20,016 bases of DNA from a virus. Positions 1 to 17,742 of this stretch are shown here, piece by piece; the first letter of the stretch is position 1, and each line of letters opens with the position of its first letter. Location: IMG/VR virus record IMGVR_UViG_3300034105_000842, positions 1 through 20,016 of that record. One strand, 5' to 3'. The notes under the pieces were generated by a model. It was not told where the DNA came from. It searched no databases and saw only the letters and a program-made list of their open reading frames with translations. A program made the position numbers and the translations under genes.

Positions 1-211
1 GTTGTCTCTGCGAACGGAGACTGATATGAAAAATGATATCATCGCCAAGTGGCACGATGAAAGTCAGATGAATAAGTTCTTTGCAGAACGTCGATCTGAT
101 GTTCACGTTATGCATCCTGCTTTTGCTTTTCCAGAAGACTTTGCATCACAATGTCAGTTTGATCCAAAGATCATTCATCTCTCAAAAGATAATTCCAAAT
201 ATCACGTATGA
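1..211 (+). CDS. GT6-like glycosyltransferase, C-terminal fragment
   Basis: Only the last roughly 69 codons are inside the window; the reading frame is open to the left edge, so the TTG near base 2 is not a credible start. The visible segment contains AKWHDESQMNKFF, which closely resembles the WHDESHLNKY block near the C-terminus of family 6 glycosyltransferases (the ABO blood-group and alpha-1,3-galactosyltransferase family), followed by a basic/aromatic tail as in that family. GT6 enzymes are retaining GT-A enzymes that transfer Gal or GalNAc from UDP-sugars onto a terminal galactose-type acceptor; bacterial and phage members exist. Here it is the first visible gene of a long glycan cluster, and its stop overlaps the next start (ATGA). 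The assignment rests on one motif in a fragment. The donor sugar cannot be told. Confidence 0.65.
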   Translation, partial: LSLRTETDMKNDIIAKWHDESQMNKFFAERRSDVHVMHPAFAFPEDFASQCQFDPKIIHLSKDNSKYHV

Positions 212-1035
212 CACAACTCAACACTGGTTTATCTGGATGTCGTCTTGAGTTAATCAATGATCGAATACTTCGTAAGTATTCTTCTTCAGATGATTACAAC
301 TCAAGACTTTTATCACAAGCTCATAAACAAGTGTTGTTTTCGCAACGTATTTTGAAGAATGTTGATGCTCCAAAAGTGTATGACATTCAAGAAAATTATT
401 TTGATATGGAGTACGTTCCTGGTCATACATTTTCAGATTTCTTCTCCACCGCTTCCATCAATGATATTGAATTTGTAATTGACACATTGTTTCATTATTT
501 TGATACTTGTCTTAGTCATTTTACGTCCATCAACATTAGTACATCGGTAAATGAAAAGATCAAAGTATTAGAATCAAAGACATCGTACAAGAATTATCTA
601 CTTAACATTGGAGCTCTAACAGTAAGATATGATATCTACGTTCCTAAAACTTTTTGCCACGGCGATCTTACTTTTACTAATGTTATCTTTCATAAGAATC
701 GGCTTTTCTTTATTGATTTTCTTGATTCTTATGTCGATAGTTTTATTTCTGATCTAGTTAAACTCAAACAAGATTTGTATTATCTGTGGAGTATTAAAAC
801 TCAGAAAATACAATCCAATCGACTGGAACAAATCTATCGACACATCTGGAAACAACTCTCTCAAAAGTATTCTGAGTTTGTTCGCAGTGATGCTTTTGAT
901 ATTCTTGATGCAATGAATATATTACGAATTGAACCTTACTTGACTTCTTCACATCAAAGAACTATACTAGACACAATAGTAAAATCAACGGAGTTATATG
1001 CGAACTTTAGTGGTTCCTATGGCGGGACGATCTAG
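208..1035 (+). CDS. APH/choline-kinase-fold phosphotransferase
   Basis: This 275-residue protein has the hallmarks of the aminoglycoside-phosphotransferase/choline-kinase fold. There is a short N-lobe with a candidate lysine in LRKYS (about residue 23), a hinge-like FDMEYVPGHTF (about 65-75), the catalytic loop HGDLTFTN (151-158, with D153 and N158), and a metal-binding DFLD segment (170-173). In bacterial surface-polysaccharide loci such proteins phosphorylate small molecules or sugars (LicA-type choline kinases are one example). The next gene is a nucleotidyltransferase, so the two may act in sequence: phosphorylation, then nucleotidyl activation. The start overlaps the upstream stop as ATGA with no clear Shine-Dalgarno, so it is probably translationally coupled. 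The 3' end overlaps the next gene by 38 bases. The true substrate is unknown. Confidence 0.65.
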   Translation: MTQLNTGLSGCRLELINDRILRKYSSSDDYNSRLLSQAHKQVLFSQRILKNVDAPKVYDIQENYFDMEYVPGHTFSDFFSTASINDIEFVIDTLFHYFDTCLSHFTSINISTSVNEKIKVLESKTSYKNYLLNIGALTVRYDIYVPKTFCHGDLTFTNVIFHKNRLFFIDFLDSYVDSFISDLVKLKQDLYYLWSIKTQKIQSNRLEQIYRHIWKQLSQKYSEFVRSDAFDILDAMNILRIEPYLTSSHQRTILDTIVKSTELYANFSGSYGGTI

Positions 1036-2056
1036 TCGTTTCCCAAATATGAGACCCAAGTGGATGCTTACACATCCAATGACCAATCGTTTTATGGTTA
1101 CCGAAGCCATTCTTGGTCTGAATCTAAACTTCTTCGATCATATTTACTTTCTTTGCCTTCAAGAACACGAAGACAAATATGAATTTATGAAAGGGTTCGT
1201 TGCAGAATTAGATGAACTTGGACTAAGAGAGAAATCAAATATTGTTTTACTACCAGAACAAACCAGTTCACAATCCGAAACTGTCTATACATTTCTCAGT
1301 GGTCAGGAGTTAGATGGTTTTGTGTTCATTAAAGACAGTGATGGATATTATGAATGTGAACTGACAGAAGAAAGAAATCAGGTCGCATATTTTGATCTGA
1401 ATGATATGGATGATATTAATGCACGAACCAAGAGTTATGTAGAACTTGATATCAATGAGATGGTGACCAACATTGTAGAGAAAAAGGTTATCAGTTCTAC
1501 GTTCTCTAGTGGTGGTTATGGATTCGCTGATGCAAAAGAGTTCTGTGCCACCTATGAAAAACTACAAGATATGGATGGTGAATGTTACATCAGTCATATT
1601 ATCTTTGAGATGATGTTAAGTGGATCTACGTTCTACGGTCTGAAGACTTCTAACTTCAAAGACTGGGGAACGATCAATGCTTGGAACAAATACAAGTCAC
1701 AATACAAGTGTTTGTTTGTGGATATCGATGGAACTCTAGTGACAAACTCATCAGTTCACTTTCCTCCCTATGTTGGATCTGGTGAAGTATTGGAGAACAA
1801 TGTTGATTTTCTTGCAGAACTTCATCAGAGTGGTAAGGTTAAAATCATTCTGACCACCAGTCGCCCAGAGAGGTTAAAGAAATTAACTCTGATGGAAATG
1901 CAAGCCAAAGGTATTCCATTTGATCACATCATTATGGGATTACCACATTGTCAGAGAGTCTTGATCAATGACTTTGCAAAGAGTAATCCTTACCCATCGA
2001 GTAAAGCAATAAATATCCCGAGAAATGCAGATAATCTGAAGGAGTTTTTTGAATGA
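998..2056 (+). CDS. Nucleotidyltransferase-HAD phosphatase fusion
   Basis: A 352-residue two-domain protein. Residues 1 to about 230 resemble sugar-1-phosphate or phosphocholine nucleotidyltransferases: an N-terminal PMAGRSSRF...PKWML signature (8-24) replaces the usual GxGxR...PKxL loop, and IKDSDGY (111-117) is a candidate metal-site aspartate segment. Residues about 236-352 form a HAD-superfamily domain with motif I FVDIDGTLV (240-248, nucleophile D242 and acid D244), motif II TTSRPERL (about 286) and a late INDFA aspartate (about 325). HAD domains of this size occur in capsule biosynthesis loci. The fusion suggests one enzyme that both activates and dephosphorylates a sugar or alcohol phosphate. 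It starts inside the previous gene and ends in an ATGA overlap with the epimerase gene. The substrate is not predictable. Confidence 0.7.
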   Translation: MRTLVVPMAGRSSRFPNMRPKWMLTHPMTNRFMVTEAILGLNLNFFDHIYFLCLQEHEDKYEFMKGFVAELDELGLREKSNIVLLPEQTSSQSETVYTFLSGQELDGFVFIKDSDGYYECELTEERNQVAYFDLNDMDDINARTKSYVELDINEMVTNIVEKKVISSTFSSGGYGFADAKEFCATYEKLQDMDGECYISHIIFEMMLSGSTFYGLKTSNFKDWGTINAWNKYKSQYKCLFVDIDGTLVTNSSVHFPPYVGSGEVLENNVDFLAELHQSGKVKIILTTSRPERLKKLTLMEMQAKGIPFDHIIMGLPHCQRVLINDFAKSNPYPSSKAINIPRNADNLKEFFE

Positions 2057-3042
2057 AGATTTTGATTACAGGAGCCGCAGGTCAGATTGGTTCTGGTCTT
2101 GCAAAACTCCTACTTGAAAAAGGTCATCAACTTGTACTTTGTGACAACTTAAGAAATGGTTATGTTTCTAATCTAAAAGTCAATGGAGAAATCATCGCAC
2201 CATTTTACAAAGTTGATATTGCAACTCAAGAACTTCAAGAATGGTGTGGAGATCAATACGACGCGATTATTCATCTTGCTGCCATTACTTCTCTTCCTGA
2301 TTGTGAAAGTAATCCCCTGGAAACACTCCGTATTAATGTTTCGGGAACTGCAAATGTTTTAGAGTTTGCTAGAAAGTATGAAGTCCCACACGTTATTTTT
2401 GCAAGCACAAGTGCAGTCTATGAGAATAATGATGTTGAAGTCTTCACAGAAGATCTAAAAGTCAATCCTAGATTGTACTATTCTCTGTCCAAAAAGATGG
2501 CGGAAGAAGTGGTTCAGTCTTATCAAGAGAACTATGGGCTCAAAGTCACCACTCTTCGTTTCTTCAATGTGTTTGGGCCTGATGGAGATCAGACACGACC
2601 CAATCCCCCTCTTCTGAACTTCGTTGTTCGTGAACTTCAAAAAGGTGTTGCACCTGAACTGAGTGGTGATGGAGAACAGGTCAGAGATTTTATCTGGGTA
2701 AATGATATTGTTTCAATGTTGGAACTGTGTCTGGAAAAACAACCGAATGATACCTTCAACGTTTGTACTGGTGTGACAGTCAGTGTGAATCAAGTTGCAA
2801 CGTGGGTTGCAGAAGCCCTTGGTATGGAACATCTGGGTCTTCGACATAAACCCGCCCAAGAACTCTGGAGTCGTTATCCTGCGATGTTTGATGGTAAGTA
2901 TCCATTGAACAAAGAAATCGTCGCCAAGGAGACTACAAGGTACTCTAAGGGATCGTATCAAAAAGCGAAAGATCTTCTGGGTTGGGAACCAAACACGGAT
3001 CTTGAAACTCTAATTAAGAACGTTGCATTACAACTTAAATGA
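2053..3042 (+). CDS. NAD-dependent sugar epimerase/dehydratase (extended SDR)
   Basis: A 329-residue protein of the usual extended short-chain dehydrogenase length. The Rossmann signature GAAGQIG lies at 7-13, the acidic NAD ribose-binding site is near CDN (30-32), HLAAITS is at about 74-80, the catalytic serine/threonine region FASTSAVYE at 116-124, and the YxxxK pair at Y143/K147. LRFFNVFGPDG and the downstream RDFIWVNDIV are typical of GalE/RmlB-like nucleotide-sugar enzymes, which act in the cytoplasm on UDP-, GDP- or dTDP-sugars. Its place between the nucleotidyltransferase and a run of glycosyltransferases fits a role in making the donor sugar. It overlaps both neighbours by four bases (ATGA). 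Epimerase versus 4,6-dehydratase cannot be separated by eye. Confidence 0.85.
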   Translation: MKILITGAAGQIGSGLAKLLLEKGHQLVLCDNLRNGYVSNLKVNGEIIAPFYKVDIATQELQEWCGDQYDAIIHLAAITSLPDCESNPLETLRINVSGTANVLEFARKYEVPHVIFASTSAVYENNDVEVFTEDLKVNPRLYYSLSKKMAEEVVQSYQENYGLKVTTLRFFNVFGPDGDQTRPNPPLLNFVVRELQKGVAPELSGDGEQVRDFIWVNDIVSMLELCLEKQPNDTFNVCTGVTVSVNQVATWVAEALGMEHLGLRHKPAQELWSRYPAMFDGKYPLNKEIVAKETTRYSKGSYQKAKDLLGWEPNTDLETLIKNVALQLK

Positions 3043-3797
3043 AAATTGCATTATGTCTTTCGGGGCAACCTCGTTTCGTAGAAGAGGTTGCTCCTTTTAT
3101 TCTACAGAATGTCTGTGAAGGATATGATGTCGATGTCTTCTGTCACTTTTGGTTTGATGACAAACTCCAAACTCAACCTTATAAGTTTGGTGAATGTGGT
3201 AAAGGTGAATGGCATCATCAACGTATTCAATCTGATGCTGTAGAACTCGCCAAGAAAATATACAATCCGATTAAGTGTGAGACACAACAGAGTCAGTCGT
3301 TCTTTGATTCTAAAGTTCCTTTTGAACCATCACTTAAACGGTATTGGTATGGAGCTTTGGAAGATCCAGATCAACAAGGTTTTCGAAACAGAACCATCAA
3401 TAACTGTTTATCATATTTCTACAGTTTGAATGAAGTCAATAAGTTCAAAAAAGAATACGAATATGCAAATGATTTTAAGTATGATTGGGTTGTAAGATGT
3501 AGAACTGATACGGTGATTCAAACCAAGATTCCTTTTGAACAACTTGATTCCAGAGTGATTAACTTCTCAAATCTTCAGAATCAACCTGATGGAATGATCA
3601 ATGATTGGTTTGATTTTGGTGGTTCGAAAGAAATGGATGTGTTTATGAGTGTCTTTCCTGTTTGGCAATTGATGATGGAAAAGTGTATGAAAGAAACTGG
3701 AGCCTGGTGTCACGAATTGATGCATCGTAAAATGGTAGATACATTTGGAATTGGTATTCAAGGTCATCCCATACATATTACGTTACCGAGGTTCTGA
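3039..3797 (+). CDS. Putative GT-A-like glycosyltransferase, GQPRF type (copy 1)
   Basis: A 252-residue protein that starts MKIALCLSGQPRF and carries VVRCRTDTVI at about 151-160. A short acidic motif after a hydrophobic strand (R153, R155, D157) is compatible with the DxD-like nucleotide-sugar/metal site of GT-A enzymes. There is no signal peptide or membrane helix. The next gene is a clear paralog with the same GQPRF start and an RMRTD motif. Membership of a glycosyltransferase cluster and this motif pair support a glycosyltransferase-like role, but I do not recognise the exact family. The start overlaps the epimerase stop (ATGA); the stop overlaps the next start by one base (TGATG). Confidence 0.55.
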   Translation: MKIALCLSGQPRFVEEVAPFILQNVCEGYDVDVFCHFWFDDKLQTQPYKFGECGKGEWHHQRIQSDAVELAKKIYNPIKCETQQSQSFFDSKVPFEPSLKRYWYGALEDPDQQGFRNRTINNCLSYFYSLNEVNKFKKEYEYANDFKYDWVVRCRTDTVIQTKIPFEQLDSRVINFSNLQNQPDGMINDWFDFGGSKEMDVFMSVFPVWQLMMEKCMKETGAWCHELMHRKMVDTFGIGIQGHPIHITLPRF

Positions 3798-4486
3798 TGA
3801 AAATTGCATTATGTTTCGCTGGTCAACCAAGGTTTATTGATCGAATGAACTTTGACAATCTCGTGCAAAATCACGAGGTTGATACTTATGCTCACTTCTG
3901 GTGGGATGAAAGTTATCGAGGTCAACACTTTGCTTGGAACAGTAATCTCAAATATCCTGAGAACTATGATCCCATTCAGGATTTTGAAGAGAGAATGAAA
4001 CCAAAGAAGTTGGTTTATGAAAAGTATCCAGAGTTTGATCTTTCTGGTTTTAAGATGGTCAGTCAGATGGAGTTTCCTCTGGAAGAAGTTATTGTTCGTG
4101 AATCTATCTACCGTCAGAAGTGTCAATGGCAATCAGTTAAGAATTCTGTCAATCTTGTTGATGGTGTGTATGATCTTGTCATTCGTATGAGAACTGATCT
4201 AGAGTTCAGAGAACCTGTTCCTCTGGAAGAATGTGAAGGTGATGGTTTGTTTATGATGAACGGTGCCTATCAAGCTGGTGATGGTAGAGAATATTGTGAT
4301 TGGTTTTATTGTGGCCCTTGGCATCGTGTGATGGAGTTTGATCCTCTTGTTGTATATGATGAGTTCTATAAAGATGGTATTCGGCATATGCACGAACTGG
4401 TAATCGAAACGCTTGCCACTTTACAAATACCTCACGCTGTAGTAGACTTAAAAGCTTGGATGACCGACCGCAGTAAGATCAAATGA
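3797..4486 (+). CDS. Putative GT-A-like glycosyltransferase, GQPRF type (copy 2)
   Basis: A 229-residue paralog of the preceding product. Both begin MKIALC, then GQPRF, then a hydrophobic/aromatic segment (AHFWWDE here, CHFWFDD in copy 1). Both contain a central R-x-R-T-D motif (RMRTD at about 130-134). A distal WF-rich stretch also matches loosely (CDWFYCGPWHRVME here, NDWFDFGGSKEMD in copy 1). The first 18 nucleotides of the two genes are identical. A GAGG ribosome-binding element sits just before the start. The glycosyltransferase role is inferred from the cluster and the acidic motif; no specific family or sugar is claimed. Confidence 0.55.
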   Translation: MKIALCFAGQPRFIDRMNFDNLVQNHEVDTYAHFWWDESYRGQHFAWNSNLKYPENYDPIQDFEERMKPKKLVYEKYPEFDLSGFKMVSQMEFPLEEVIVRESIYRQKCQWQSVKNSVNLVDGVYDLVIRMRTDLEFREPVPLEECEGDGLFMMNGAYQAGDGREYCDWFYCGPWHRVMEFDPLVVYDEFYKDGIRHMHELVIETLATLQIPHAVVDLKAWMTDRSKIK

Positions 4487-5397
4487 AAATCGTTATCTGG
4501 GGATACCCACTACATAGTCATACACACTCTTATATTCACAACGCTTTCTATAAGGCATTTGACTTCCTCGGTCACGATGTCTATTGGTTTCACGATGATG
4601 AATATCCAGAGGATTTTGATTATGACAATTGTATTTTTTTAACAGAAGGCTTTGCAGATCGAAACATACCACTTAAGGAAACGAGTACATATTTTGTACA
4701 CGTTTGTGTCAATCCAAACAAGTATCTTGGTAAGGTAAAGAAACTGATTGATGTTCGATACTTGCAAGAGAGTATGGACAATGACAACTATGAGTTTGTA
4801 CTTGACCGATCTAATTGTACTCAGTTGGATCGAGGTATTTTATACGATAACAAGTCAGATCAATACGATATTATCTACGCTGGATGGGCTACAGATCTCT
4901 TGCCCTTTGAAATCAATTTCGATTGGATGAATATTCCTAGGGAGAAGAAATATTATTTTATCGGAAGTACATCTGCAGAAGGTAGATTTGCAAACGCACA
5001 TTTGATCAATGAGTTTGCTGGATACTGCAAACAATCTGGAATCGATTTTGTCTACATCAATCCTTGGCAAACACCAATCAGTGATGAAGAGAATCGTGTT
5101 CTTACTCAGAAGAGTTTTATGTCTCCTGATTTCCGTAATGAAACTCATAAACGTTGGGGATATCTGGCCTGTCGTCTGGTAAAGAGTATCAGTTATGGGC
5201 ACGTTGGGTTAACCAATTCACCAATCAATGCCAAGTTTGTGGATGACACAGTGATTTGTAGAGAGAACATCTCTGAACTCTTTGAAGAAGGATTGAAATA
5301 CAAAGACAATAAAGAACTTATTAAACATCAGATGGAAGTGGTAAAATATAATCACACATATCTCAATCGTATCAACGGTATGCTAAAAGTATTATGA
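4483..5397 (+). CDS. Putative GT-B-fold glycosyltransferase
   Basis: A 304-residue soluble protein. It opens with MKIVIWGYPLHSHTHSYIHNAF, a hydrophobic strand followed by a His/Ser-rich loop and helix, similar to the first Rossmann unit of GT-B enzymes. The C-terminal half has a second Rossmann-like entry (KKYYFIGSTSAEGRF, about 165-180). After it come RLVKSISYGHVGLTNSPINAKF (about 230-251), where GT-B enzymes recognise a nucleotide-sugar, and an ending (YNHTYLNRINGMLKVL) like that of family 1/4-type transferases. There is no diagnostic signature, so the family stays open. It sits between putative glycosyltransferases and overlaps both neighbours by four bases, consistent with stoichiometric co-expression. 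Confidence 0.5.
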   Translation: MKIVIWGYPLHSHTHSYIHNAFYKAFDFLGHDVYWFHDDEYPEDFDYDNCIFLTEGFADRNIPLKETSTYFVHVCVNPNKYLGKVKKLIDVRYLQESMDNDNYEFVLDRSNCTQLDRGILYDNKSDQYDIIYAGWATDLLPFEINFDWMNIPREKKYYFIGSTSAEGRFANAHLINEFAGYCKQSGIDFVYINPWQTPISDEENRVLTQKSFMSPDFRNETHKRWGYLACRLVKSISYGHVGLTNSPINAKFVDDTVICRENISELFEEGLKYKDNKELIKHQMEVVKYNHTYLNRINGMLKVL

Positions 5398-6107
5398 CAC
5401 TCGGAGTATTTCATCAGGTTTTTGATAAACCTAAAGCCACAGAAGAAGCCATAAAAAGTTTTCGTGAGTATCATCCAGATCATCCTTACGTTTTGATTTC
5501 TGATGGCGGGGAAGATTTTTCAGATCTCGCCAAGAAGTACAACTGTTTGTATCTTCACGCAGAAACTAATCTTGGGTATAGAGATCACACACATCCTTCT
5601 GGTATCTATGGTATGACCAAGGAGGAAGTTCTGACTTGGTTGCATCGATTCAATACCGCTTGTGAACTGTGTCAGACAGATCATATTTTGATGATGGAGG
5701 ATGATGTTCACATTCGTGGAGAGATTCACGTTCCAGATGACTGGGAATTTGCAGGTCAAGCGAAACCAGGTAATCTGTTACAAGAACCTTTTATGGATTA
5801 CCTTACACAAAAATATGGTGTAGAATGGAATGTGAACTACTACGGAACTGGTGGTGGTAGTATCTTCAATGCAAAAACTTTTCTTGCAAACTATAAGAGA
5901 GTTATAAGTATTTTTGATGAGGAGTTTGATTATATTAAGGAAAACTTATGTGGTAATCTTGGATGGGTAGATGTTTGGATGCCGATGTATTACTTCCTTT
6001 GTGGTAAAAAATATCGTCACAATAGTCTTCTCACTGAAACAACTTCTAATCCAATCTGGACTATCTCCAAAGAGCCTATCGTTCATCAATATAAGGTGCA
6101 TTACTGA
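5394..6107 (+). CDS. GT-A-fold glycosyltransferase
   Basis: A 237-residue protein. The N-terminal part (VFHQVFDKP...AIKSFREYHPDHPYVLISDGG) resembles the nucleotide-binding half of GT-A glycosyltransferases. ILMMEDDVHI at about 98-107 supplies a classical acidic metal/nucleotide-sugar motif (E102, D103, D104) directly after a beta-strand. A glycine-rich YYGTGGGSIFNAKTF segment (about 150-164) resembles acceptor-loop regions of such enzymes. No membrane segment is visible. ATGA overlap upstream and a one-base TGATG overlap downstream place it in the same transcript. The sugar and acceptor are unknown. Confidence 0.6.
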   Translation: MTLGVFHQVFDKPKATEEAIKSFREYHPDHPYVLISDGGEDFSDLAKKYNCLYLHAETNLGYRDHTHPSGIYGMTKEEVLTWLHRFNTACELCQTDHILMMEDDVHIRGEIHVPDDWEFAGQAKPGNLLQEPFMDYLTQKYGVEWNVNYYGTGGGSIFNAKTFLANYKRVISIFDEEFDYIKENLCGNLGWVDVWMPMYYFLCGKKYRHNSLLTETTSNPIWTISKEPIVHQYKVHY

Positions 6108-6961
6108 TGTCTAAAGTTACTTTCGGTTATATCGTCGGTGGTGCCGACAAACATTACAACAATCTTCTACGTTCTTTGGAATCGCTAGAACGTATTGAAC
6201 AACCACACGAAATCGTGGTTCTGGATGCTGATGGTCGATTGGAATCCGATGATGCTCAACCAAATGTAAAGATCATTCATTTTCCAGTCGATGAAGCCAA
6301 GGGAGAAGGATGGTTCAAACCTCACTATTGGCAGATGCGATATCATCTGAACAAGTATGTAGAGACAGACTATTGTTTCTATATGGATACTGATACGGTG
6401 ATCGTGAATGATCGTGTGGATGAACTGATTGAAGAATCAGAAGATCAGTTTCTGATTTGTCGTCACTGGTGGGTGCCTACTCTCCGTGATTATCTGTCAC
6501 GAGTTCGAGTCGCTACTGGTCTCGTCAGTCATTTGATTGATGAAAACAATCTGGACATTCCTTATTTCGCTTCTGGTTTGTTTCTGTTTCAAAAAGATAA
6601 ACACGATCACATCTTTGACACATTTCACACAAAGTTTGATAGTGTCTTTGGTTCAATTCCTAACAATGCAGAAGGTATTACTGATGAACTTCTGTTGTGT
6701 CTGACGTTGAATGAAACTGGTGGATTCAAGACCACCAATGGTTCGATGAACCATAGTTCTGAACGAGAACAGATGCCTTTGGTATTCAATTCAAACGATA
6801 AGAAGTTCTATGGAAAGAATCCACAGGATGATATTTTCAAAAAAGTTTTTGCGTTTCATAACGATCTTCTGGAGTTCTATACTTTAAGTTATTTCAGAAC
6901 TGCTTTTGATGATGAAGACTTCATCAAAAACTTTAAGGAAGTTTGCTATGCAGAAGAATGA
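6107..6961 (+). CDS. GT-A-fold glycosyltransferase with DxD motif
   Basis: A 284-residue protein with an N-terminal TFGYIVGGADKHYNNLLRSLESL, a LDADGRLESDDA loop (39-50), and CFYMDTDTVIV (90-100) containing the D94-T-D96 signature that binds Mn/Mg and the nucleotide-sugar in GT-A enzymes. ASGLFLFQKDKHDHIFDTF (about 155-173) resembles the conserved segment after the DxD in GT8-like and related families. It is soluble. The stop overlaps the next start (ATGA). The exact CAZy family is not assigned. Confidence 0.6.
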   Translation: MSKVTFGYIVGGADKHYNNLLRSLESLERIEQPHEIVVLDADGRLESDDAQPNVKIIHFPVDEAKGEGWFKPHYWQMRYHLNKYVETDYCFYMDTDTVIVNDRVDELIEESEDQFLICRHWWVPTLRDYLSRVRVATGLVSHLIDENNLDIPYFASGLFLFQKDKHDHIFDTFHTKFDSVFGSIPNNAEGITDELLLCLTLNETGGFKTTNGSMNHSSEREQMPLVFNSNDKKFYGKNPQDDIFKKVFAFHNDLLEFYTLSYFRTAFDDEDFIKNFKEVCYAEE

Positions 6962-7923
6962 AAATCGCTCTTGTAGGACCGGGAATTATTGAGATCCCAC
7001 CAAAAGGTTGGGGTGCTGTAGAGTCTTTGATCTGGGATTATGCCACTGAACTTGGAGAACTTGGTCACGAGGGTTCCATCATCAACACGCCAGATCCAAA
7101 TCAAATTATAGAGGAACTTCGTAGTGATAACTTTGATTTTATTCACGTCCATTATGATGTGTTCTATACACTGATGGATGTCATTCGGGAGAACTGCCCG
7201 AATGCCAAACTAGCCATTAGTTCTCACTATCCATACATTGATCAACCTGATCGTCATTCATATGATGGATATGATCGCATTTACAAATGGTTAATCACAC
7301 AAAAGAACTATTATAACTTCTGCATTTCACAGAAGGACTATGGAACTTATGCGAAGGATGGTGCCAACATTGATAAACTTTTGATCTGTGAAAACGGTGC
7401 TCAACATCGTGACTATAACTTTACTGAGGTTGCATCAAAACCAGATAAGACTTTGTATCTTGGTAAGATTGAACCTCGTAAAAGACAGTATGTTTATCAA
7501 TCGATAGATAGTATAGAGTTTGTTGGTCATTACACACCAACCACAAGTTTTCATCCACACAAGAATTACCTTGGTGAGTGGGAACATCAATACAAGTTGC
7601 AACACGTTACCGATTATGGTAATATGTTATTACTCTCTGACGGAGAGAATGGTACTCCTCTTGTAATCAAAGAGGCTTTGATTTCTGGTTTGGGTGTAGT
7701 TGTATCTCAATATGCTGCACACGATCTAGACGCTTCTCTTCCTTTTGTAACAGTCATTCCAGATGATAAATGGAATGACCTTGAATATGTGGAGAAAGAA
7801 CTTATCAAGAACAGAGAAGTATCTGTGACGATGAGAAAAGATATCCGTCAGTATGGTGTTGACAATTTCTCTTGGCAGAAACTTGTTAAAACTTATGTAA
7901 AAAATATTGAACAAATGAAATGA
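6958..7923 (+). CDS. GT4-like GT-B glycosyltransferase
   Basis: A 321-residue protein. I chose the ATG at 6958, which makes an ATGA overlap with the upstream stop, over an in-frame TTG 15 bases earlier that adds only five residues absent from the paralog. The N-terminus MKIALVGPGIIEIPPKGWGAVESLIWD is the glycine-rich acceptor-side loop of family 4 glycosyltransferases. The C-terminal half contains LLLSDGENGTPLVIKEALISGLGVVVS, the E-x7-E type nucleotide-sugar-binding region. The protein is strikingly like the first half of the next gene product, including NYLGEW, DYGN and DLEYVE blocks, so the two arose by tandem duplication. It lacks the C-terminal GT25 extension of that neighbour. Confidence 0.75.
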   Translation: MKIALVGPGIIEIPPKGWGAVESLIWDYATELGELGHEGSIINTPDPNQIIEELRSDNFDFIHVHYDVFYTLMDVIRENCPNAKLAISSHYPYIDQPDRHSYDGYDRIYKWLITQKNYYNFCISQKDYGTYAKDGANIDKLLICENGAQHRDYNFTEVASKPDKTLYLGKIEPRKRQYVYQSIDSIEFVGHYTPTTSFHPHKNYLGEWEHQYKLQHVTDYGNMLLLSDGENGTPLVIKEALISGLGVVVSQYAAHDLDASLPFVTVIPDDKWNDLEYVEKELIKNREVSVTMRKDIRQYGVDNFSWQKLVKTYVKNIEQMK

Positions 7924-9692
7924 AGATTTCGATTATTGGCCCTGGTTTGATGCCCATACCTCCAAAAGGATGGGGTGCCGTTGAATCTCTTATTTGGGAT
8001 ATGGCTAATGCTCTACAAGAATTGGGCCATAGTGTTCAGATTATTAATACTACTGATGGAAACAAAGTTCTTGCTGCGATTCAAGAACACGATCCAGACT
8101 TTGTTCACATCAATTATGATGACTTCATTGTTCTGTATCCATTCATCAATAAACCAAAGGCGATGACTTCTCACTTTGGATATCTGGAACGACCAGATAT
8201 GATGAATGGGTATGTCAATATCTTTAATAAGTTTGGTGAGTTAAAACCAAACGTATTTTGTTTGTCTGAAGGTATTAAGAACATCTATAAAATCTTCAGT
8301 GGATTTTCAGAGGATAAACTGTTTGTGACTCCAAACGGTGTAAATCTGAATGCATTTACGGTTACCGATCAACCAAAGTATCCTGATCGTAGTATCTATC
8401 TCGCAAAGGTAGATTATCGTAAACGTCAACATATGTTCCAACACATCAAGAGTCTTTGGTTTGCTGGAAACATTGTTGATGAAAGATATGATACGAACAA
8501 TAACTATCTTGGAGAATGGTCAAAAGAAACTCTGTTTCAAGAACTGACTGACTACGGTAATCTAGTTCTGTTATCAGATGGTGAGGCTCATTCTCTGGTG
8601 ATTATGGAAGCCTTTGCTGCAGGTCTGGGTGTTGTGATCAGTGAGTTTGCAACTGCGAACCTGGATGTAGACAAAGAGTTCATCACCGTTATTCCCGAGA
8701 AAAAGATTAAAGATCTGGAATACGTTGAAGAACAAATCATTAAGAACCGAGAGTACTCTGTTGCTCATCGGGAAGAAATTCGTGAATATGCAAAAGAGTT
8801 TGAGTGGAAGAATGTTTTACAAAGACATTATCTTCCTGCAGTTCAAAAACTGATTGAACAAACTTCTACACCAGAACCTCCTGTTCCTACAAACTATCAA
8901 GAGAAAAACAAAGCGAAGTATAAACTAAAGAACTTTGGACCTCTCTACTATATTAATCTGGATGAACAACCAGAACGAAATGCAGAAATGCAATCGATGT
9001 GTAAGTATTGGGGGTTGAAACCAATTCGTATCTCTGCATTTGATGGTCGTAATGATAAGTTAGAACATATCATTGAAGGTACTTATCCTGAAGGTGTTAC
9101 ATCAGGAGAGATTGGATGTGTTACATCACATCTTAAAGCCATCAAACAATGGTATGAAACATCAGATAGCCCTTATGCCGTATTCTCTGAAGACGATGTA
9201 AGTTTTGACACAGCTAAGTTCTGGGGATTTGATTGGGATACTTTTATGTCAAAAGTTCCTTATGATTGGGATTGTATTCAACTTGCGATTATTAATCCTG
9301 GAGTGGTTTATGCAAGTATGCACGCTCGATGGGTCAATGACTTTTCTACGGCGTGTTATATGATCACCAGACATCACGCCAAAAAATTAATCGATCATCA
9401 TTGTGTTGGAGATAAGTTCCGTTTAGATCAAGGTGTAAAACCTAGACCTGTTGCCGATGATTTGATCTATAACTGCGGTAGAACTTATGCCATTCCACTG
9501 TTTCATTACAAGATTGAATTGGGTTCTTCAATTCATCCTGATCACCTTGAAATATTTCACAGAGGAAGTCACGATGGTATTCTGAATCATTGGAAAGAAT
9601 CTCTTGCTCAAATGGAAGATCAAACTGGATTGTTTGATTATGATCCTTATCTTGGTCGCCTCCCTCCAGAGGTTCAAATGAAACAAGCTTGA
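7920..9692 (+). CDS. GT4-GT25 bifunctional glycosyltransferase fusion
   Basis: A 590-residue two-domain protein. Residues 1 to about 313 are a GT4-like GT-B enzyme (GPGLMPIPPKGWGAVESLIWD at 7-27; LLSDGEAHSLVIMEAFAAGLG at about 217-237), paralogous to the preceding gene product. A proline-rich linker (about 315-330) joins a family 25 (LPS-type) glycosyltransferase domain. Its landmarks are YYINLDEQPERN (343-354), the conserved GEIGCVTSHLKAI block (396-408) and the acidic FSEDDVSF motif (422-429). GT25 enzymes transfer galactose or glucose in LPS outer core synthesis. The fusion could add two successive sugars. Its stop codon overlaps the -35 box of the porin promoter, and a terminator follows directly, so it is the last gene of the glycan cluster. 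Confidence 0.8.
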   Translation: MKISIIGPGLMPIPPKGWGAVESLIWDMANALQELGHSVQIINTTDGNKVLAAIQEHDPDFVHINYDDFIVLYPFINKPKAMTSHFGYLERPDMMNGYVNIFNKFGELKPNVFCLSEGIKNIYKIFSGFSEDKLFVTPNGVNLNAFTVTDQPKYPDRSIYLAKVDYRKRQHMFQHIKSLWFAGNIVDERYDTNNNYLGEWSKETLFQELTDYGNLVLLSDGEAHSLVIMEAFAAGLGVVISEFATANLDVDKEFITVIPEKKIKDLEYVEEQIIKNREYSVAHREEIREYAKEFEWKNVLQRHYLPAVQKLIEQTSTPEPPVPTNYQEKNKAKYKLKNFGPLYYINLDEQPERNAEMQSMCKYWGLKPIRISAFDGRNDKLEHIIEGTYPEGVTSGEIGCVTSHLKAIKQWYETSDSPYAVFSEDDVSFDTAKFWGFDWDTFMSKVPYDWDCIQLAIINPGVVYASMHARWVNDFSTACYMITRHHAKKLIDHHCVGDKFRLDQGVKPRPVADDLIYNCGRTYAIPLFHYKIELGSSIHPDHLEIFHRGSHDGILNHWKESLAQMEDQTGLFDYDPYLGRLPPEVQMKQA

Positions 9693-9720: not shown

Positions 9721-9745
9721 GAGTGTCGAAAGACGCTCTTTTTTT
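9721..9745 (+). terminator. Rho-independent terminator of the glycan cluster
   Basis: A 7-bp stem, GAGTGTC / GACGCTC (one G-T wobble), closes a stable GAAA tetraloop and is followed by seven T. It lies 28 bases after the last glycosyltransferase stop. Because the porin promoter would initiate within the first arm, only transcripts arriving from upstream contain the full hairpin. Confidence 0.8.
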
Positions 9746-9764
9746 ATTTTCAAAAAAACTTTTT

Positions 9765-11267
9765 ATGAAACTCAAACAACTGATGCTCGCACCTGTTGCT
9801 CTGGGAATGGTTGCTCCTGTTGCTGCGAATGCCGCAGATCTGAATATGGCTGCAGTCAACCAATACACTTCTTCAGAACAAGTCTCAAGCATCACTCAAT
9901 TGTCTGATGTAAAACCTACTGACTGGGCTTACCAGGCACTCAGCAATCTGGTTGAGCGTTATGGTTGCGTTGCTGGTTATGAAAATAGTACTTTCCTTGG
10001 TGGAAAACCAATGACCCGTTTTGAGGCCGCGGCTCTTCTGAACGCTTGTCTGGATCGAGTTACGGAGACCACTGATGAACTGAATCGTCTTGCTAACGAT
10101 TTCGCAAAGGAACTTGGTATCCTTCGTGGTCGTGTTGCTAAACTGGAGAAACAGTCTACTGCTCTGCAGGCACAACAGTTCTCCACCACTACCAAACTCA
10201 AGGGTGAAGCAACCTTCGTTCTGGGTGGTGTAGATGGTGCCCGTCTTGCTAACAGCAGCAATGTCGGTAACACTGCTTTCAATTACGATCTTCGTCTGAG
10301 CTTTGATACCTCCTTCACTGGTAAGGATCTGCTCAAGACTCGTCTGCGTTCTGGTAACTTCTCCAGTCAACCCTTCGGTTCTTCCTCGTCTCTGTTCAAA
10401 CTGGACAAGGCAGAAACCTATGCGAACACGATGACGCTTGATCGTCTGTATTATCGCTTCCCTGGTCTCACTAAAGGTGTCTATCTGACTGCTGGTGCTC
10501 AGGTTCGTAATACCGAAATGGCTTGGGTTCCTACTGCCTATAAGTCGGACGTTCTTGACTTCTTCTCCGTTGCTGGTGCTCCTGGTGTCTATAACAAGGC
10601 AACTGGTTCTGGTTTCGGTGTGGAATGGGTACAACCTGTCAAGAAGGGTAAGCCTGGTTTCGTTGCCAATCTGAACTATGTTGCTCAGAACGGAAACGAT
10701 TCTACCAAAGGTCAGTTTGATGAAGATGGTTCTCTGAACACTCTTGCTCAAGTTGGTTACCGTGCTCCTCAGTACGGCATCGCATTCGGTTACCGTTATG
10801 GTACTGAAGGTACTCGTGTTCGTAACTTCAATGCTATCGGTGGTGGTTCTGGTGCTCTTGGCGCTAACCAAACCTCCAATGGTTATGCTCTGAATGCTTA
10901 CTGGCAACCCAAGAAGTCGGGTATCATTCCTTCTGTGAGTGGTGCTTATGGTTGGAACACCGTAAGTCTGTCTAACAACCGCACGACTCCTACTGGTGCT
11001 ACCGATTCACAAACTTGGATGGCAGGTCTTCAGTGGAGCGATGTGTTTGCTAAGGGTAATGCCGCTGGTTTTGCCATTGGTGCTCCCGGTAACGCTGCTT
11101 CTCTTGCTGCTGATCGCAAAGCGATTATGTGGGAAGCCTTCTATCGTTACAAAGTTAGCGATGCGATCAGCGTGACTCCTGCTGTGTTCTATGTGTCCAA
11201 CAATCAAGGTCTGAAGCAAGCTTCAGATAACTATGGTGGTGTGATTCAGACTACCTTTAGGTTCTGA
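9765..11267 (+). CDS. SLH-domain outer-membrane porin (OprB/Som-like)
   Basis: The 500-residue product has an N-terminal signal peptide with an AxA-type site (VAPVAANA, then ADL, cleavage near residue 24). An SLH-like domain (about 44-105: LSDVKPTDWAYQALSNL, then MTRFEAAALLNACLDRV) is followed by a short coiled coil (about 105-140) and a long beta-strand-rich region. The protein ends in phenylalanine (TTFRF), as outer-membrane barrels do. This is the domain order of cyanobacterial Som/OprB porins, which anchor to peptidoglycan and pass small solutes. The ATG at 9765 starts the signal peptide; an in-frame GTG at 9723 would add residues encoded inside the terminator hairpin and is rejected. Codon choice looks more host-like and less AT-rich than in the glycan genes. 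It is flanked by terminators and is probably monocistronic, an auxiliary gene taken from a host. Confidence 0.85.
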   Translation: MKLKQLMLAPVALGMVAPVAANAADLNMAAVNQYTSSEQVSSITQLSDVKPTDWAYQALSNLVERYGCVAGYENSTFLGGKPMTRFEAAALLNACLDRVTETTDELNRLANDFAKELGILRGRVAKLEKQSTALQAQQFSTTTKLKGEATFVLGGVDGARLANSSNVGNTAFNYDLRLSFDTSFTGKDLLKTRLRSGNFSSQPFGSSSSLFKLDKAETYANTMTLDRLYYRFPGLTKGVYLTAGAQVRNTEMAWVPTAYKSDVLDFFSVAGAPGVYNKATGSGFGVEWVQPVKKGKPGFVANLNYVAQNGNDSTKGQFDEDGSLNTLAQVGYRAPQYGIAFGYRYGTEGTRVRNFNAIGGGSGALGANQTSNGYALNAYWQPKKSGIIPSVSGAYGWNTVSLSNNRTTPTGATDSQTWMAGLQWSDVFAKGNAAGFAIGAPGNAASLAADRKAIMWEAFYRYKVSDAISVTPAVFYVSNNQGLKQASDNYGGVIQTTFRF

Positions 11268-11572: not shown

Positions 11573-11692
11573 ATGAACAAAATTTTTACTGAAAAGGCAG
11601 AACGTATTAATGGTTGGTTTGCAATGATCGGATTCGTTGCCGCTGCTGGTTCTTATCTGGTCACTGGTCAAATCATTCCTGGTGTGTTTTGA
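11573..11692 (+). CDS. hli: Short high-light-inducible protein, 39 residues
   Basis: A complete 39-codon gene (MNKIFTEKAERINGWFAMIG...) preceded by a strong AGGAGG ribosome-binding site at 11562-11567. It is little more than the chlorophyll-binding helix: ERINGWFAMIGFVAAAGSYL followed by VTGQIIPGVF. The usual arginine of NGR is tryptophan (W15); I recall the same NGW form in other short picocyanobacterial and phage Hlis, so this is probably a subfamily feature. The TGQIIPG ending is typical of the family. It probably works as a thylakoid photoprotective protein, co-transcribed with the preceding hli and the following peroxiredoxin gene. Its stop overlaps an ATG (TGATG) that could also start the next gene. 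Confidence 0.9.
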   Translation: MNKIFTEKAERINGWFAMIGFVAAAGSYLVTGQIIPGVF

Positions 11693-11703
11693 TGGAGGTC
11701 AAA

Positions 11704-12231
11704 ATGCGTAGTGAAGGTTATCAAATTCCTCAAGTCGAATTTACTTTCCGTGAGAACGGTGAATTTGTAACTCGTACTTCCGCAGATCTTTTCGATGGTA
11801 AGCGTGTGGTTATTTTCAGTTTGCCTGGTGCATTCACACCTACTTGCTCTGCTTATCAACTGCCTGGATTTGAAGAGAAGTACGAAGATTTTATTGGACT
11901 TGGCATTGATGACATTTATTGTGTCTCTGTTAATGATGGGTTTGTTATGAATGCCTGGGCACAAGACCAGAACATTGAGAAAGTCAAACTCATTCCAGAC
12001 GGCAATGCTTACTTCACACGTTCTATGGGAATGCTTGTCAACAAGTCTAACCTTGGTTTCGGTGATCGCTCTTGGCGTTATGCTGCAGTTGTGGATAACG
12101 GAGTCATCGAGAAACTATTCGTGGAAGTGGGGCAACGGGACAATGCCGACTCCGACCCTTACGAAGCGACTACTCCAGAAAATGTTCTAGAGTATGTTTC
12201 ATCTAATGTAAAAGTGGGTGCCACCACTTGA
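11704..12231 (+). CDS. Type II (PRX5-like) peroxiredoxin
   Basis: A 175-residue thiol peroxidase of the AhpC/TSA superfamily. The catalytic signature PGAFTPTCS is at 41-49, giving the peroxidatic cysteine C48 with P41 and T45. The conserved arginine lies in RSWRYAAVV (R125). These enzymes reduce hydrogen peroxide and alkyl hydroperoxides using thioredoxin or glutaredoxin. I chose the ATG at 11704, five bases after a GGAGG site; an in-frame ATG at 11692 is possible (four more residues), while the longer frame from 11614 overlaps the hli gene and is unlikely. Placed after two hli genes under one strong promoter, it fits a photo-oxidative stress role. An excellent terminator follows. Confidence 0.9.
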   Translation: MRSEGYQIPQVEFTFRENGEFVTRTSADLFDGKRVVIFSLPGAFTPTCSAYQLPGFEEKYEDFIGLGIDDIYCVSVNDGFVMNAWAQDQNIEKVKLIPDGNAYFTRSMGMLVNKSNLGFGDRSWRYAAVVDNGVIEKLFVEVGQRDNADSDPYEATTPENVLEYVSSNVKVGATT

Positions 12232-12236
12232 TCAAG

Positions 12237-12263
12237 AGACCCTCACAAGAGGGTCTTTTTTTT
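12237..12263 (+). terminator. Rho-independent terminator of the hli-peroxiredoxin unit
   Basis: A perfect 8-bp stem AGACCCTC / GAGGGTCT with an ACAA loop, followed by a run of T (to 12263). It begins six bases after the peroxiredoxin stop. Its last T is the first base of the late promoter box TATAAATA. Confidence 0.9.
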
Positions 12264-12270
12264 ATAAATA
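12263..12270 (+). promoter_or_regulatory. T4-type late promoter TATAAATA
   Basis: An exact match to the T4 late promoter box (recognised by the gp55 sigma-like protein in T4). Transcription would begin about six to seven bases downstream, near 12276, leaving a leader of under 20 bases before the peptidase ATG at 12294. It is the natural start of the late/lysis gene run. Confidence 0.8.
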
Positions 12271-12293: not shown

Positions 12294-12965
12294 ATGACAT
12301 TAGATCTTCATAACTTTTTCAAATTTTATGATGATGGTAATGCAAATCATGTAGCAGCAGTTCAATGGTTGGAAGACAACCTACCTGCTAACTTCATGGA
12401 TGACGCAGAAACCGAGTGGATCGGAATTTTTAGAACTAAACCCCCTACACCAGAAGTTCTTGCAGTTCCATACTTCAATCAAGTAGACAACTACAGAGAT
12501 GCACATAGAACTTGCAACTCTTCATCGTGTGCAATGTGCCTTGCTTTCCTCAAGCCAGGAAGCATCAAAGGTGATGATGAGTACGTTAAGAAAGTATTTG
12601 CGATTGGTGACACGACTGACCATTCGGTCCAGACAAAAGTTCTGGCAGGTTATGGAGTTAAGTCACACTTTAGTTACAATCTTTCTTTTGCTGACATTGA
12701 TAAAAGTCTTGATGCTGGGAAACCTGTTGTTATTGGTATCCTGCATCGCGGCTCTTTATCTAATCCTACTGGTGGGCATATGTGTGTTGTGATTGGTAAG
12801 ACACCAGACGGTAAAGGATACTACGTAAATGATCCATATGGTTCTCTCAACGATAACTACACTGGACCAGTGACAAATGGTAAGAAGACCATTTATACCA
12901 AAGCAGTTCTTAAGCATCGTTGGTGCCCAGGTGGCAACGATGGTTGGGGTAGAATTTTCGACTGA
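12294..12965 (+). CDS. C39-like cysteine peptidase with N-terminal LHNFFKFYD module
   Basis: A 223-residue protein. Residues 1-47 form a module (LDLHNFFKFYD...QWLEDNLP...IFR) that is repeated at the N-terminus of the following lysozyme. Residues about 55-220 match a peptidase C39-like papain fold: oxyanion glutamine in PYFNQVDNY (Q63), a nucleophile block CNSSSCAMCLAF with C74 the likely catalytic cysteine, histidine in GGHMCVVIGK (H162) and aspartate in YYVNDPYG (D180). C39-type domains cleave peptides; a cell-wall peptide or maturation substrate is plausible. The ATG at 12294 follows the late promoter; the earlier in-frame GTG at 12276 sits at the transcription start and is rejected. No signal peptide. 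Next to the lysozyme it may be a second lytic enzyme. Confidence 0.7.
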   Translation: MTLDLHNFFKFYDDGNANHVAAVQWLEDNLPANFMDDAETEWIGIFRTKPPTPEVLAVPYFNQVDNYRDAHRTCNSSSCAMCLAFLKPGSIKGDDEYVKKVFAIGDTTDHSVQTKVLAGYGVKSHFSYNLSFADIDKSLDAGKPVVIGILHRGSLSNPTGGHMCVVIGKTPDGKGYYVNDPYGSLNDNYTGPVTNGKKTIYTKAVLKHRWCPGGNDGWGRIFD

Positions 12966-15792: not shown

Positions 15793-15815
15793 TCACTTTG
15801 AGTGAAACTTTTTAT
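15793..15815. terminator. Possible weak bidirectional terminator at convergent gene ends
   Basis: TCACT-TTG-AGTGA forms a 5-bp stem (15793-15805) followed on the plus strand by AACTTTTTAT. It lies within the last codons of the minus-strand gene, just after the nuclease stop. The short stem makes this a weak candidate. Confidence 0.35.
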
Positions 15816-16488
15816 ACTGTTCTTTCTTTTGATTCTTCTGTTCTTTCTTGAGTAACTTATTGACTTTTTTAAGGGACTGACTTTTCTCAAAGGCAAAGAA
15901 TATCTGAAGTTCATAAGGAGTAAGGTCTCTACTTAAGAGTTTCTTACCCCTTACAAATAATTGTTGAACAATCGGTTTCATTTTATTTACCATCCATTCC
16001 ACCAAAGATTTGCCAACAAGAGCCGCAGCAACAGAAGCAGTAGCAGTGGTGCCAGCAAGAATAACCTGCTCTTTAGGTGGGATAGGGACTTCTCCGACGA
16101 TTGGTACTTCAATGACGGGCACTCCTAAATTTGTGTTTGTGGGTGGTTGATCGGAAATAATCCGATTATCCTGCTTTTCTTGAACAGGAATTTGGACTTG
16201 TGGTAATACTGGGGTAGTGTCTGGAAGTCCCCTAGTCTTCTCTTGTTTTTCTTCTTCTTTTTTTTCTTGCTCTGCTCTTACCGCAGCATCAAACTCTTCT
16301 TGTGTAGGAACATCAATCACAGGATATTTGATAGTCGTATCAGGCATATTAATAATCGGCATATCAATTTCAGGTATCACAGATCTCTGTGCTCTCTGAG
16401 TTACAGGAGGTTCTATCGTTGGAATGATTGGAGGACCACCAAATCTTATATCTGTTTTTGGCACATTAATTTGATTAATGGGTTCCAT
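15793..16488 (-). CDS. Proline-rich hypothetical protein, possibly membrane- or virion-associated
   Basis: A 231-residue protein. The N-terminal 150 residues are rich in proline, isoleucine and valine, with repeated short P-x-I/V units (IIPTIEPPV, VIPEIDMPII, VPVIEVPIVGEVPIPP) and a charged EQEKKEEEKQEKTR block (about 73-86), so they are probably extended. A moderately hydrophobic segment (about 147-170, VILAGTTATASVAAALVGKSLVEW) could cross or lie on a membrane. The C-terminus is strongly basic and lysine-rich. I do not recognise the family. Its start is overlapped by 14 bases by the end of the GIY-YIG gene, which looks like a later insertion separating it from the exported-protein genes upstream. 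Confidence 0.7.
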   Translation of the reverse strand: MEPINQINVPKTDIRFGGPPIIPTIEPPVTQRAQRSVIPEIDMPIINMPDTTIKYPVIDVPTQEEFDAAVRAEQEKKEEEKQEKTRGLPDTTPVLPQVQIPVQEKQDNRIISDQPPTNTNLGVPVIEVPIVGEVPIPPKEQVILAGTTATASVAAALVGKSLVEWMVNKMKPIVQQLFVRGKKLLSRDLTPYELQIFFAFEKSQSLKKVNKLLKKEQKNQKKEQYKKFHSK

Positions 16489-17092
16489 TCTTTAATTTTT
16501 CATCCCTTTTTCTTTTTTGTGCCGCCAATTGCTTTTCTCTAATTTTTTGTTTAGTTTCTTCACTCATTTTTTTACCATATTGAGAATTATTTTTCCCACT
16601 TCTATCTGGTTGATTCTCTTTCATTTTTTTTAATGCTTCTGGTGTATGTCCACCTTCAGTTGGACTTTTCCATTCACCATTTATAACTCTTTTCTTTTGT
16701 GCCTCACTAATTTTTTTTCTTACTTCTGGTCTCTTTGCTGGATTTTTATCTCCAACAAGTTTTCCTTTTGCTGCGGCACTTAATTTTTGCTTTACTTCTG
16801 GTGTATGTGAAATATATTGACTACCTCCACCTATTGTATTATTATAACCGTTTTCATAAGATTTATATTTTTCTATATAAAATGTTTCTCTTTCATCGAG
16901 ATTTGTAATATTACATTCTTCTAATAGTTGTATCTTAAAGTTTTCTTTTCCATATTTTTGAATAGCGTATGATATTGCTGTTTTTTTGCTTGGTTGTTGG
17001 TGCTCACTAAATCTTTGTTTGAGGGTTAATTTTGTTTGACCAACATACATTTTATTGTTAAGTGTATTTGTAATTAAATATATTTTTCCCAT
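16475..17092 (-). CDS. Free-standing GIY-YIG homing-type endonuclease with NUMOD3-like repeats
   Basis: A 205-residue protein from the ATG at 17092. The GIY-YIG catalytic module covers about 1-90: GKIYLITNTLNNKMYVGQTK (the IYL and YVG strands), an arginine in LKQRFSEHQ, and the metal-binding glutamate in LDERETFYIEKY, followed by YNNTIGG. The rest contains four NUMOD3-like DNA-binding helices (HTPEVKQKLS, KRPEVRKKIS, HTPEALKKMK, MSEETKQKIR), as in T4 Seg proteins and I-TevI relatives. It nicks or cuts DNA at an intron-less or neighbouring target and promotes its own spread. The gene is conspicuously AT-rich and overlaps the next gene by 14 bases. A TTG 51 bases upstream was rejected: it falls in a hairpin that appears to control this gene. 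Confidence 0.9.
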   Translation of the reverse strand: MGKIYLITNTLNNKMYVGQTKLTLKQRFSEHQQPSKKTAISYAIQKYGKENFKIQLLEECNITNLDERETFYIEKYKSYENGYNNTIGGGSQYISHTPEVKQKLSAAAKGKLVGDKNPAKRPEVRKKISEAQKKRVINGEWKSPTEGGHTPEALKKMKENQPDRSGKNNSQYGKKMSEETKQKIREKQLAAQKRKRDEKLKNGTH

Positions 17093-17094
17093 AT

Positions 17095-17152
17095 GGTTAG
17101 ACTTTGAACTTATATTATTATTTATAAAAATTGAGTAGTTCAAAGTCTAACC
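17095..17152. repeat. Perfect 16-bp inverted repeat upstream of the endonuclease start
   Basis: GGTTAGACTTTGAACT (17095-17110) and AGTTCAAAGTCTAACC (17137-17152) are exact inverted copies around a 26-base AT-rich loop. On the minus-strand transcript the 3' arm ends two bases before the endonuclease ATG, so a full hairpin would bury the ribosome-binding region. There is no following T-run, so it is not a terminator. The 5' arm begins in the stop codon of the upstream gene. Confidence 0.85.
17119..17126 (-). promoter_or_regulatory. T4-type late promoter TATAAATA inside the hairpin loop
   Basis: On the minus strand the loop of the inverted repeat reads TATAAATA. Transcription would start about six bases downstream (near 17113), after the 5' arm and just before the 3' arm, so late transcripts cannot form the hairpin and the endonuclease start would be free. 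Confidence 0.75.
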
Positions 17153-17742
17153 TATTTTTTTATTTTAGAAACAATTTGCCCATTTCCAGTCATCAAGTAA
17201 CCATTTGGTGCTGGTCCTACTACATCGGCACATATTTTTCCATAAGGACTTTCTGGGTGATAAAATACTCCTACTCTTATTTGTTCTCCACAAACTCGCA
17301 ATCTTACGAGTTCAAAATCTAAACGACTTTTTTCTGCTTCACTCTCTTGTCTTTTAATCTCTGTACGAACTCTTGCTTTACAAAGTTCTTGGAAAGATCC
17401 GTCAAGAGGTATGGAGAACCCTGCAGAGAGTCCTCCATTGAATGAATTACTTTGATATGATGTTGGATCTGTACTGCCCGCAAGACTATTGTAACCAAAG
17501 GTTTGTAAGTTTAATGTTGGACCCTGGCAAGACACACCACCACCATAAGTATTCACAGAAAAAGGACCCTGAAGCACCTGTACTGCCTGGTTGGTTACAT
17601 TACCAGTAGCAGATGCTGAGGGCCCTGCAATATTCGTATTAGATGGTGCTTCTGCAAATGCAGGAGATGCTAAACCGATTATTGCGTAAAGACTGATAAT
17701 GAGTTTGTGGTAGATTCCTCTACCGTTTTGCGATCTATCCAT
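17152..17742 (-). CDS. Exported hypothetical protein, 196 residues
   Basis: The N-terminus has a basic start and a hydrophobic core ending in an AxA-type site (LIISLYAIIGLASPAFA, then EA; cleavage near residue 30), so it is probably secreted through Sec. The mature part is Gly/Ser/Asn-rich (NTYGGGVSCQGP), then has a charged helix (about 115-145, ELCKARVRTEIKRQESEAEKSRLDFE) and a conserved-looking end (ADVVGPAPNGYLMTGNGQIV). Four cysteines could form two disulfides. The ATG lies 64 bases inside the preceding gene; no shorter start retains the signal peptide. I do not recognise the family; a structural or cell-surface role is possible. Confidence 0.65.
   Translation of the reverse strand: MDRSQNGRGIYHKLIISLYAIIGLASPAFAEAPSNTNIAGPSASATGNVTNQAVQVLQGPFSVNTYGGGVSCQGPTLNLQTFGYNSLAGSTDPTSYQSNSFNGGLSAGFSIPLDGSFQELCKARVRTEIKRQESEAEKSRLDFELVRLRVCGEQIRVGVFYHPESPYGKICADVVGPAPNGYLMTGNGQIVSKIKK

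Follow-up and report, generated by a model that had tools for sequence, protein, structure and literature searches.

Hairpin gating combined with a late promoter has been published for the endonucleases I-TevI, I-TevII, I-TevIII, SegB and mobE (PMC2988022 and PMC3014915), and the literature that we searched treats the arrangement gene by gene, in T4 and in Aeh1. In the T4 I-TevI system (with I-TevII and I-TevIII), the late RNA is described as lacking the 5' part of a hairpin that lies over the initiation region (PMC2988022); I-TevI is a GIY-YIG enzyme encoded in an intron, with a Shine-Dalgarno sequence in the stem and a place within early/middle transcripts. SegB of T4 is a free-standing GIY-YIG gene with a predicted late promoter and a hairpin, while mobE of Aeh1 is a free-standing homing endonuclease gene for which a hairpin over the ribosome site has been shown experimentally (PMC2988022 and PMC3014915 for both). 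The T4 genes e and soc likewise have an inhibitory hairpin in the leader, with the late box inside it or next to it (PMC3014915). Regarding cyanophages, homologues of g55, g33 and g45 and late boxes of the form NATAAATA are known (PMC2984593), and our search of the open-access literature returned no report of a hairpin-gated endonuclease in these phages.

The window analyzed here, a stretch of 20,016 bases, carries on its minus strand a free-standing homing-type endonuclease gene of 205 aa (16475-17092), with GIY-YIG (2.7e-11) and NUMOD3 (3e-11) domains in Pfam. Compared with the T4 record, its best match falls at the place of I-TevI and its second match (T4 71322-71903) is probably the SegB gene, judged by position; at the catalytic positions (Y, Y, R and E) it lines up with I-TevI. 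It shares the GIY-YIG family with I-TevI and SegB, and the free-standing state with SegB and mobE. Unlike I-TevI, it has no Shine-Dalgarno and follows an operon that is probably late; SegB differs from it in adjoining tRNA genes and in having a Shine-Dalgarno, mobE in belonging to the HNH family and lying in the nrdA/nrdB region, and e and soc in being non-mobile lysis and capsid genes. With a probability of about 0.8, we consider that this mobile GIY-YIG endonuclease gene carries its own hairpin-gated late expression switch. We class the system with I-TevI, SegB and mobE, as a cyanophage version of an arrangement whose principle is already known from T4 and Aeh1.

Both neighbors of the endonuclease gene lie on the same strand. 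The upstream gene (17152-17742, 196 aa) belongs to no Pfam family and shares its last third, starting at about codon 127, with other endonuclease-bearing phages. The downstream gene (15793-16488) begins before the endonuclease gene has ended, its ATG lying within that gene's 3' end, and in endonuclease-free relatives it comes directly after the upstream gene or overlaps it. Going by their signal-like N-termini, the upstream genes plausibly encode exported proteins. Elsewhere, judged from translations only, positions 1-9692 hold a run of about ten sugar-nucleotide/glycosyltransferase-like genes of a cyanophage fragment. Next come a porin-like protein (9723-11267) and a peroxiredoxin-like frame (11614-12231).

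The first-pass annotation had described a perfect 16-bp inverted repeat two bases from the endonuclease ATG, with a minus-strand late box in its 26-base loop, and the coordinates confirm every element. Read along the minus strand, the order is ...AAAAAATA GGTTAGACTTTGAACT actcaatttt TATAAATA ataatata AGTTCAAAGTCTAACC at ATGGGAAAA... The 5' arm GGTTAGACTTTGAACT (17137-17152) and the 3' arm AGTTCAAAGTCTAACC (17095-17110), located by inverted-repeat search, folding and covariation, are 16 nt each, 100% complementary and 26 nt apart. A motif search places the T4-type late promoter box TATAAATA in the loop, at 17126-17119. The 3' arm covers the region just 5' of the AUG, with a two-base gap (17094-17093) before the ATG at 17092-17090, and the outer base of the stem, its first G, is the final base of the TAG stop codon of the upstream gene (17154-17152).

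No other perfect inverted repeat in the 20,016 bases has arms of 12 nt or longer and a loop no longer than 60 nt. Of 200 dinucleotide-shuffled sequences, 184 lacked such a repeat altogether, and arms in the others did not exceed 14 nt; 16 bp was never reached. The leader RNA folds at -22.5 kcal/mol (z from -4.8 to -5.1), a stability that none of 200 shuffles equaled. A chance origin of the repeat is ruled out by these shuffles together with the conservation and covariation among relatives presented below.

One could argue that the stem is a transcription terminator or a processing signal instead of a translational gate, as the plus strand shows a T-rich tract (CCTATTTTTTTATTTT) after it and the genes on that strand stop some 1.3 kb short of it. 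Yet that tract consists of the lysine and stop codons of the upstream gene, the sense strand has no T tract after the stem, the hairpin is absent from the list given by the terminator scan and its 26-nt loop is too long. Such a signal would also leave unexplained the invariant box and the fixed spacing of 0-2 nt to the AUG. We consider this reading highly improbable, and a terminator identity was rejected on the scan and the geometry.

According to the gating reading, RNA entering from the upstream operon would contain a 58-nt leader that folds into the 16-bp hairpin, ending two bases short of the AUG, and the folded leader would block initiation on this read-through RNA. The late polymerase of the phage would start at the TATAAATA in the loop. 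By T4 geometry, the predicted start lies 6-7 nt past the box, at 17113-17112 on the minus strand, so that the late mRNA would begin at the 3' arm, lack the 5' arm by position, fail to fold and be translated. The endonuclease would then be made late and from its own promoter alone. Folding predictions are consistent with this scheme: the longer RNA is predicted to form a stable hairpin over the initiation region, while RNA from the predicted late start is unfolded (-0.8 kcal/mol), and the predicted mean unpaired probability of the start region is 0.14 in the full-length RNA and 0.83 in the truncated one.

In order to place these values in context, we scanned 100 genes with TATAAATA located 8-60 nt before the start codon in eight sequences (the window, the related contigs G001 and G002, DSL-LC02, Syn9, S-PM2, P-SSM2 and T4). 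When ranked by the opening of the start region upon 5' removal, three members of the endonuclease family of the window took ranks 1, 2 and 3, going from 0.05-0.14 to 0.77-0.83, with the gene of the window giving the second largest change. The known T4 cases soc and e were recovered as controls (0.37 and 0.36, respectively), and a T4 gene at 45631 gave 0.50; we take the latter to be I-TevII because the annotation places I-TevII at 44836-45612. Besides, three HNH-looking genes (DSL-LC02 39793 and 111401, and G002 40958, all on the minus strand) have TATAAATA 21-27 nt upstream of their ATG, and a degree of structure is predicted in their leaders.

A protein scan of viral contigs identified 18 related loci with 82-100% identity (L003-L020), and a DNA pattern search added one more with 78% (L169). 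The hairpin with TATAAATA lies directly before the ATG in all 19 of these relatives at 78% identity or more. The first-pass annotation had named beforehand an unconserved stem or box as grounds against the switch; both are kept in every related insertion found. Over the eight distinct leaders, 99.2% of stem cells are paired; twelve of the 16 stem pairs are invariant and four have changed on both sides (U-A/A-U, A-U/G-C, C-G/U-A and U-A/A-U). None of 500 shuffles matched the covariation score, and pairing in slid registers did not exceed 54%. Part of this covariation may come from shared descent, eight distinct leaders being few. Among the variants, L017 and L018 have a stem lengthened to 23 bp that includes part of the AUG, and L010 is the exception among the leaders, with one A-C mismatch and one wobble in its stem.

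Outside this group, relatives with less than 50% identity (L021-L082) showed no comparable box-bearing hairpin at the start of the endonuclease, apart from a few weak chance stems, and a search of isolated phages for similarity to the leader gave no match worth following. Seven further loci with the pattern of box plus arm were discarded as unrelated coding or chance matches.

Exact copies of TATAAATA are expected 0.74 times per window by chance, and the window has two. Hence, the box might not be an active promoter, in which case the hairpin would merely keep the endonuclease poorly expressed on read-through RNA. Against this, the box never varies in the aligned leaders although other loop bases do, and it sits 25-26 nt before the ATG. 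In addition, [AC]TAAATA is strongly strand-biased at 12-50 nt before cyanophage genes, with 34 sense versus 0 antisense occurrences in DSL-LC02, 21 versus 0 in Syn9 and 42 versus 1 in P-SSM2. We regard an inactive box as improbable. The second TATAAATA of the window (12263-12270, plus strand) is 23 nt upstream of a 223-aa frame (ATG at 12294) that has a phage-lysozyme gene nearby; in the G002 homologue of this frame, a stem of 13 pairs encloses the box (9185, minus strand), a layout that recalls T4 gene e.

The first-pass annotation had likened the locus to T4, with early read-through RNA silenced by a hairpin that hides the ribosome site. The late box within a hairpin over the initiation region and the loss of the 5' arm from the predicted late RNA stand, while two other parts of the analogy are not supported as proposed. 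On the one hand, the T4 hairpins are described as hiding the Shine-Dalgarno, the AUG or both, but no Shine-Dalgarno (GGAG/AGGA-type motif) was found in the leaders of the endonuclease family of the window, and the stem covers the AUG-proximal region instead, which leaves an effect on initiation less certain here than it is in T4. On the other hand, early read-through is doubtful: in 59 of 62 distinct relatives, the gene that opens the upstream operon is preceded by [AC]TAAATA, and in the window this box is CTAAATA (18529-18523, minus strand), 23 nt 5' of the operon's first ATG. The upstream operon is thus probably late itself, and the read-through RNA that would be silenced may be late, not early, which would remove the usual early-versus-late reason for the hairpin. 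Confining the endonuclease to the output of its own promoter, whatever enters from upstream, would suit any time and fits these observations.

Regarding mobility, the endonucleases of different phages are mostly 78-87% identical, and their flanking genes mostly 44-67%. DSL-LC02 offers an empty site: nothing is inserted there, and the flanking genes overlap each other by 4 bp. In the window, the upstream gene is a chimera: its codons 1-126 are closer to endonuclease-free relatives and its codons 155-196 to bearers, with the change beginning at 127-140. In a tree of codons 1-126, endonuclease presence is scattered (9 changes versus a shuffled mean of 9.6), whereas in a tree of the remaining codons it is clustered, with 3 changes, a value reached in none of 500 shuffles. 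In the latter, a single set with an SH-aLRT of 100 unites ten bearers with two non-bearers; both trees were built on few columns. The chimeric flank and the contrasting trees are the pattern expected from co-conversion during homing. From these comparisons, the gene appears to be mobile between phages, with the last third of the upstream gene, from about codon 127, co-converted. On the downstream side, co-conversion extends at most to the first 15 residues or so. Two phages, L094 and L097, have an upstream-gene C-terminus like that of the endonuclease carriers and no endonuclease; they are possibly lost or resistant sites.

The first-pass annotation had left two options for the hairpin, travel with the element or an independent origin. 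Travel is favored, as the hairpin is part of the mobile unit and is inherited together with the endonuclease; other GIY-YIG genes show the same layout as well. The switch would thereby belong to the mobile unit, and homing would move it along with flanking sequence of the upstream gene.

The same flank contains a candidate homing site, GTTTAGATTTTGAACT (17309-17324, minus strand; codons 140-146 of the upstream gene), which matches the arm at 14 of 16 positions and lies 172 nt from the hairpin. Outside the hairpin, the next best arm match in the window is 11/16. A shuffled arm equaled the 14/16 match within the upstream gene in 1 of 3000 trials, and anywhere in the window in 39 of 3000. One could therefore argue that the repeat is chiefly a DNA operator, whose arms are copies of the homing site that the endonuclease binds, repressing its own late promoter like I-TevI. 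The I-TevI operator resembles its homing site at 15 of 20 positions (PMC2988022), and the flank turns into the endonuclease type from about codon 127, beside the candidate site. However, changes in an arm are matched to the opposite arm and not to the target, the arms of L013 and L169 do not track their own upstream-gene site, and the nrdB-associated family A described below has no consistent arm-like target in nrdB. Moreover, the match was found post hoc, and no peptide of the gene is more conserved than the one that the target encodes. Nor would an operator require a 16-bp pairing that runs up to the AUG. An operator as the chief role of the repeat seems to us rather unlikely. A broader proposal is equally doubtful: that the arms copy the homing site TTAGAYTTTGAACT, encoding the conserved peptide LDFEL, serve as an operator for the late promoter between them and, as RNA, also silence read-through translation, as a portable module in at least two endonuclease lineages with different insertion sites.

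The layout that we read as hairpin gating is not confined to this family. Contig G001 carries a different GIY-YIG/NUMOD3 gene, in which a stem of its own, 13 bp long and two bases from the ATG, encloses TATAAATA. Among relatives of this gene (family A), 98.0% of stem cells are paired over 18 distinct aligned leaders, with a C-G/G-C swap (11 versus 7 sequences). In family B, which is 39% identical to A, a separate stem is paired in 99.1% of cells, and two of its pairs have changed on both sides. The gene preceding the A and B loci that were checked is nrdB (ribonucleotide reductase small chain), a setting similar to that of Aeh1 mobE, but the genes are GIY-YIG/NUMOD3. Loci L256-L286 and L290-L319 are GIY-YIG/NUMOD3 genes of cyanophage-like contigs, placed directly after nrdB in those that were checked, and in each of them a covarying hairpin encloses TATAAATA immediately 5' of the ATG; in L281 the stem is kept and the exact box lost, and in L294 and L295, the sole relatives with a Shine-Dalgarno, the stem encloses an AGGAG ribosome site. 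The protein of the window has little in common with family A beyond NUMOD3 repeats, while the 3' arms of both contain AGTTCA, so the leaders may be related. By sequence comparison, then, the layout recurs at unrelated or distantly related GIY-YIG genes after nrdB, with covarying hairpins of their own.

Compared with the gene-by-gene descriptions from T4 and Aeh1, these loci add a cyanophage set that is conserved by compensation and sits inside a mobile unit, in the family of the window without a Shine-Dalgarno and beside a putatively operator-bearing operon that appears late. They also bring sets of natural variants with compensatory changes and a recurrence in several cyanophage endonuclease lineages. 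These results support the idea that a selfish gene brings its own switch, capping its expression whatever its neighbors transcribe, and they provide a collection of leaders, as well as a candidate homing site, open to direct test.

Two minor observations concern other GIY-YIG genes. In T4 (NC_000866, L220), a GIY-YIG frame located about at segD contains an in-frame ATG (MYHFVYETTNLIN) with TATAAATA 28 nt upstream of it, at 112021 on the plus strand; for segD, PMC2988022 reports that no specific promoter was found. Finally, another GIY-YIG-type family (L336-L339) shows a terminator-like hairpin followed by the box in place of the enclosing stem. In L336, L337 and L338, this GC hairpin is immediately upstream of [TC]ATAAATA, and transcription appears to be insulated there in place of a translational hairpin.
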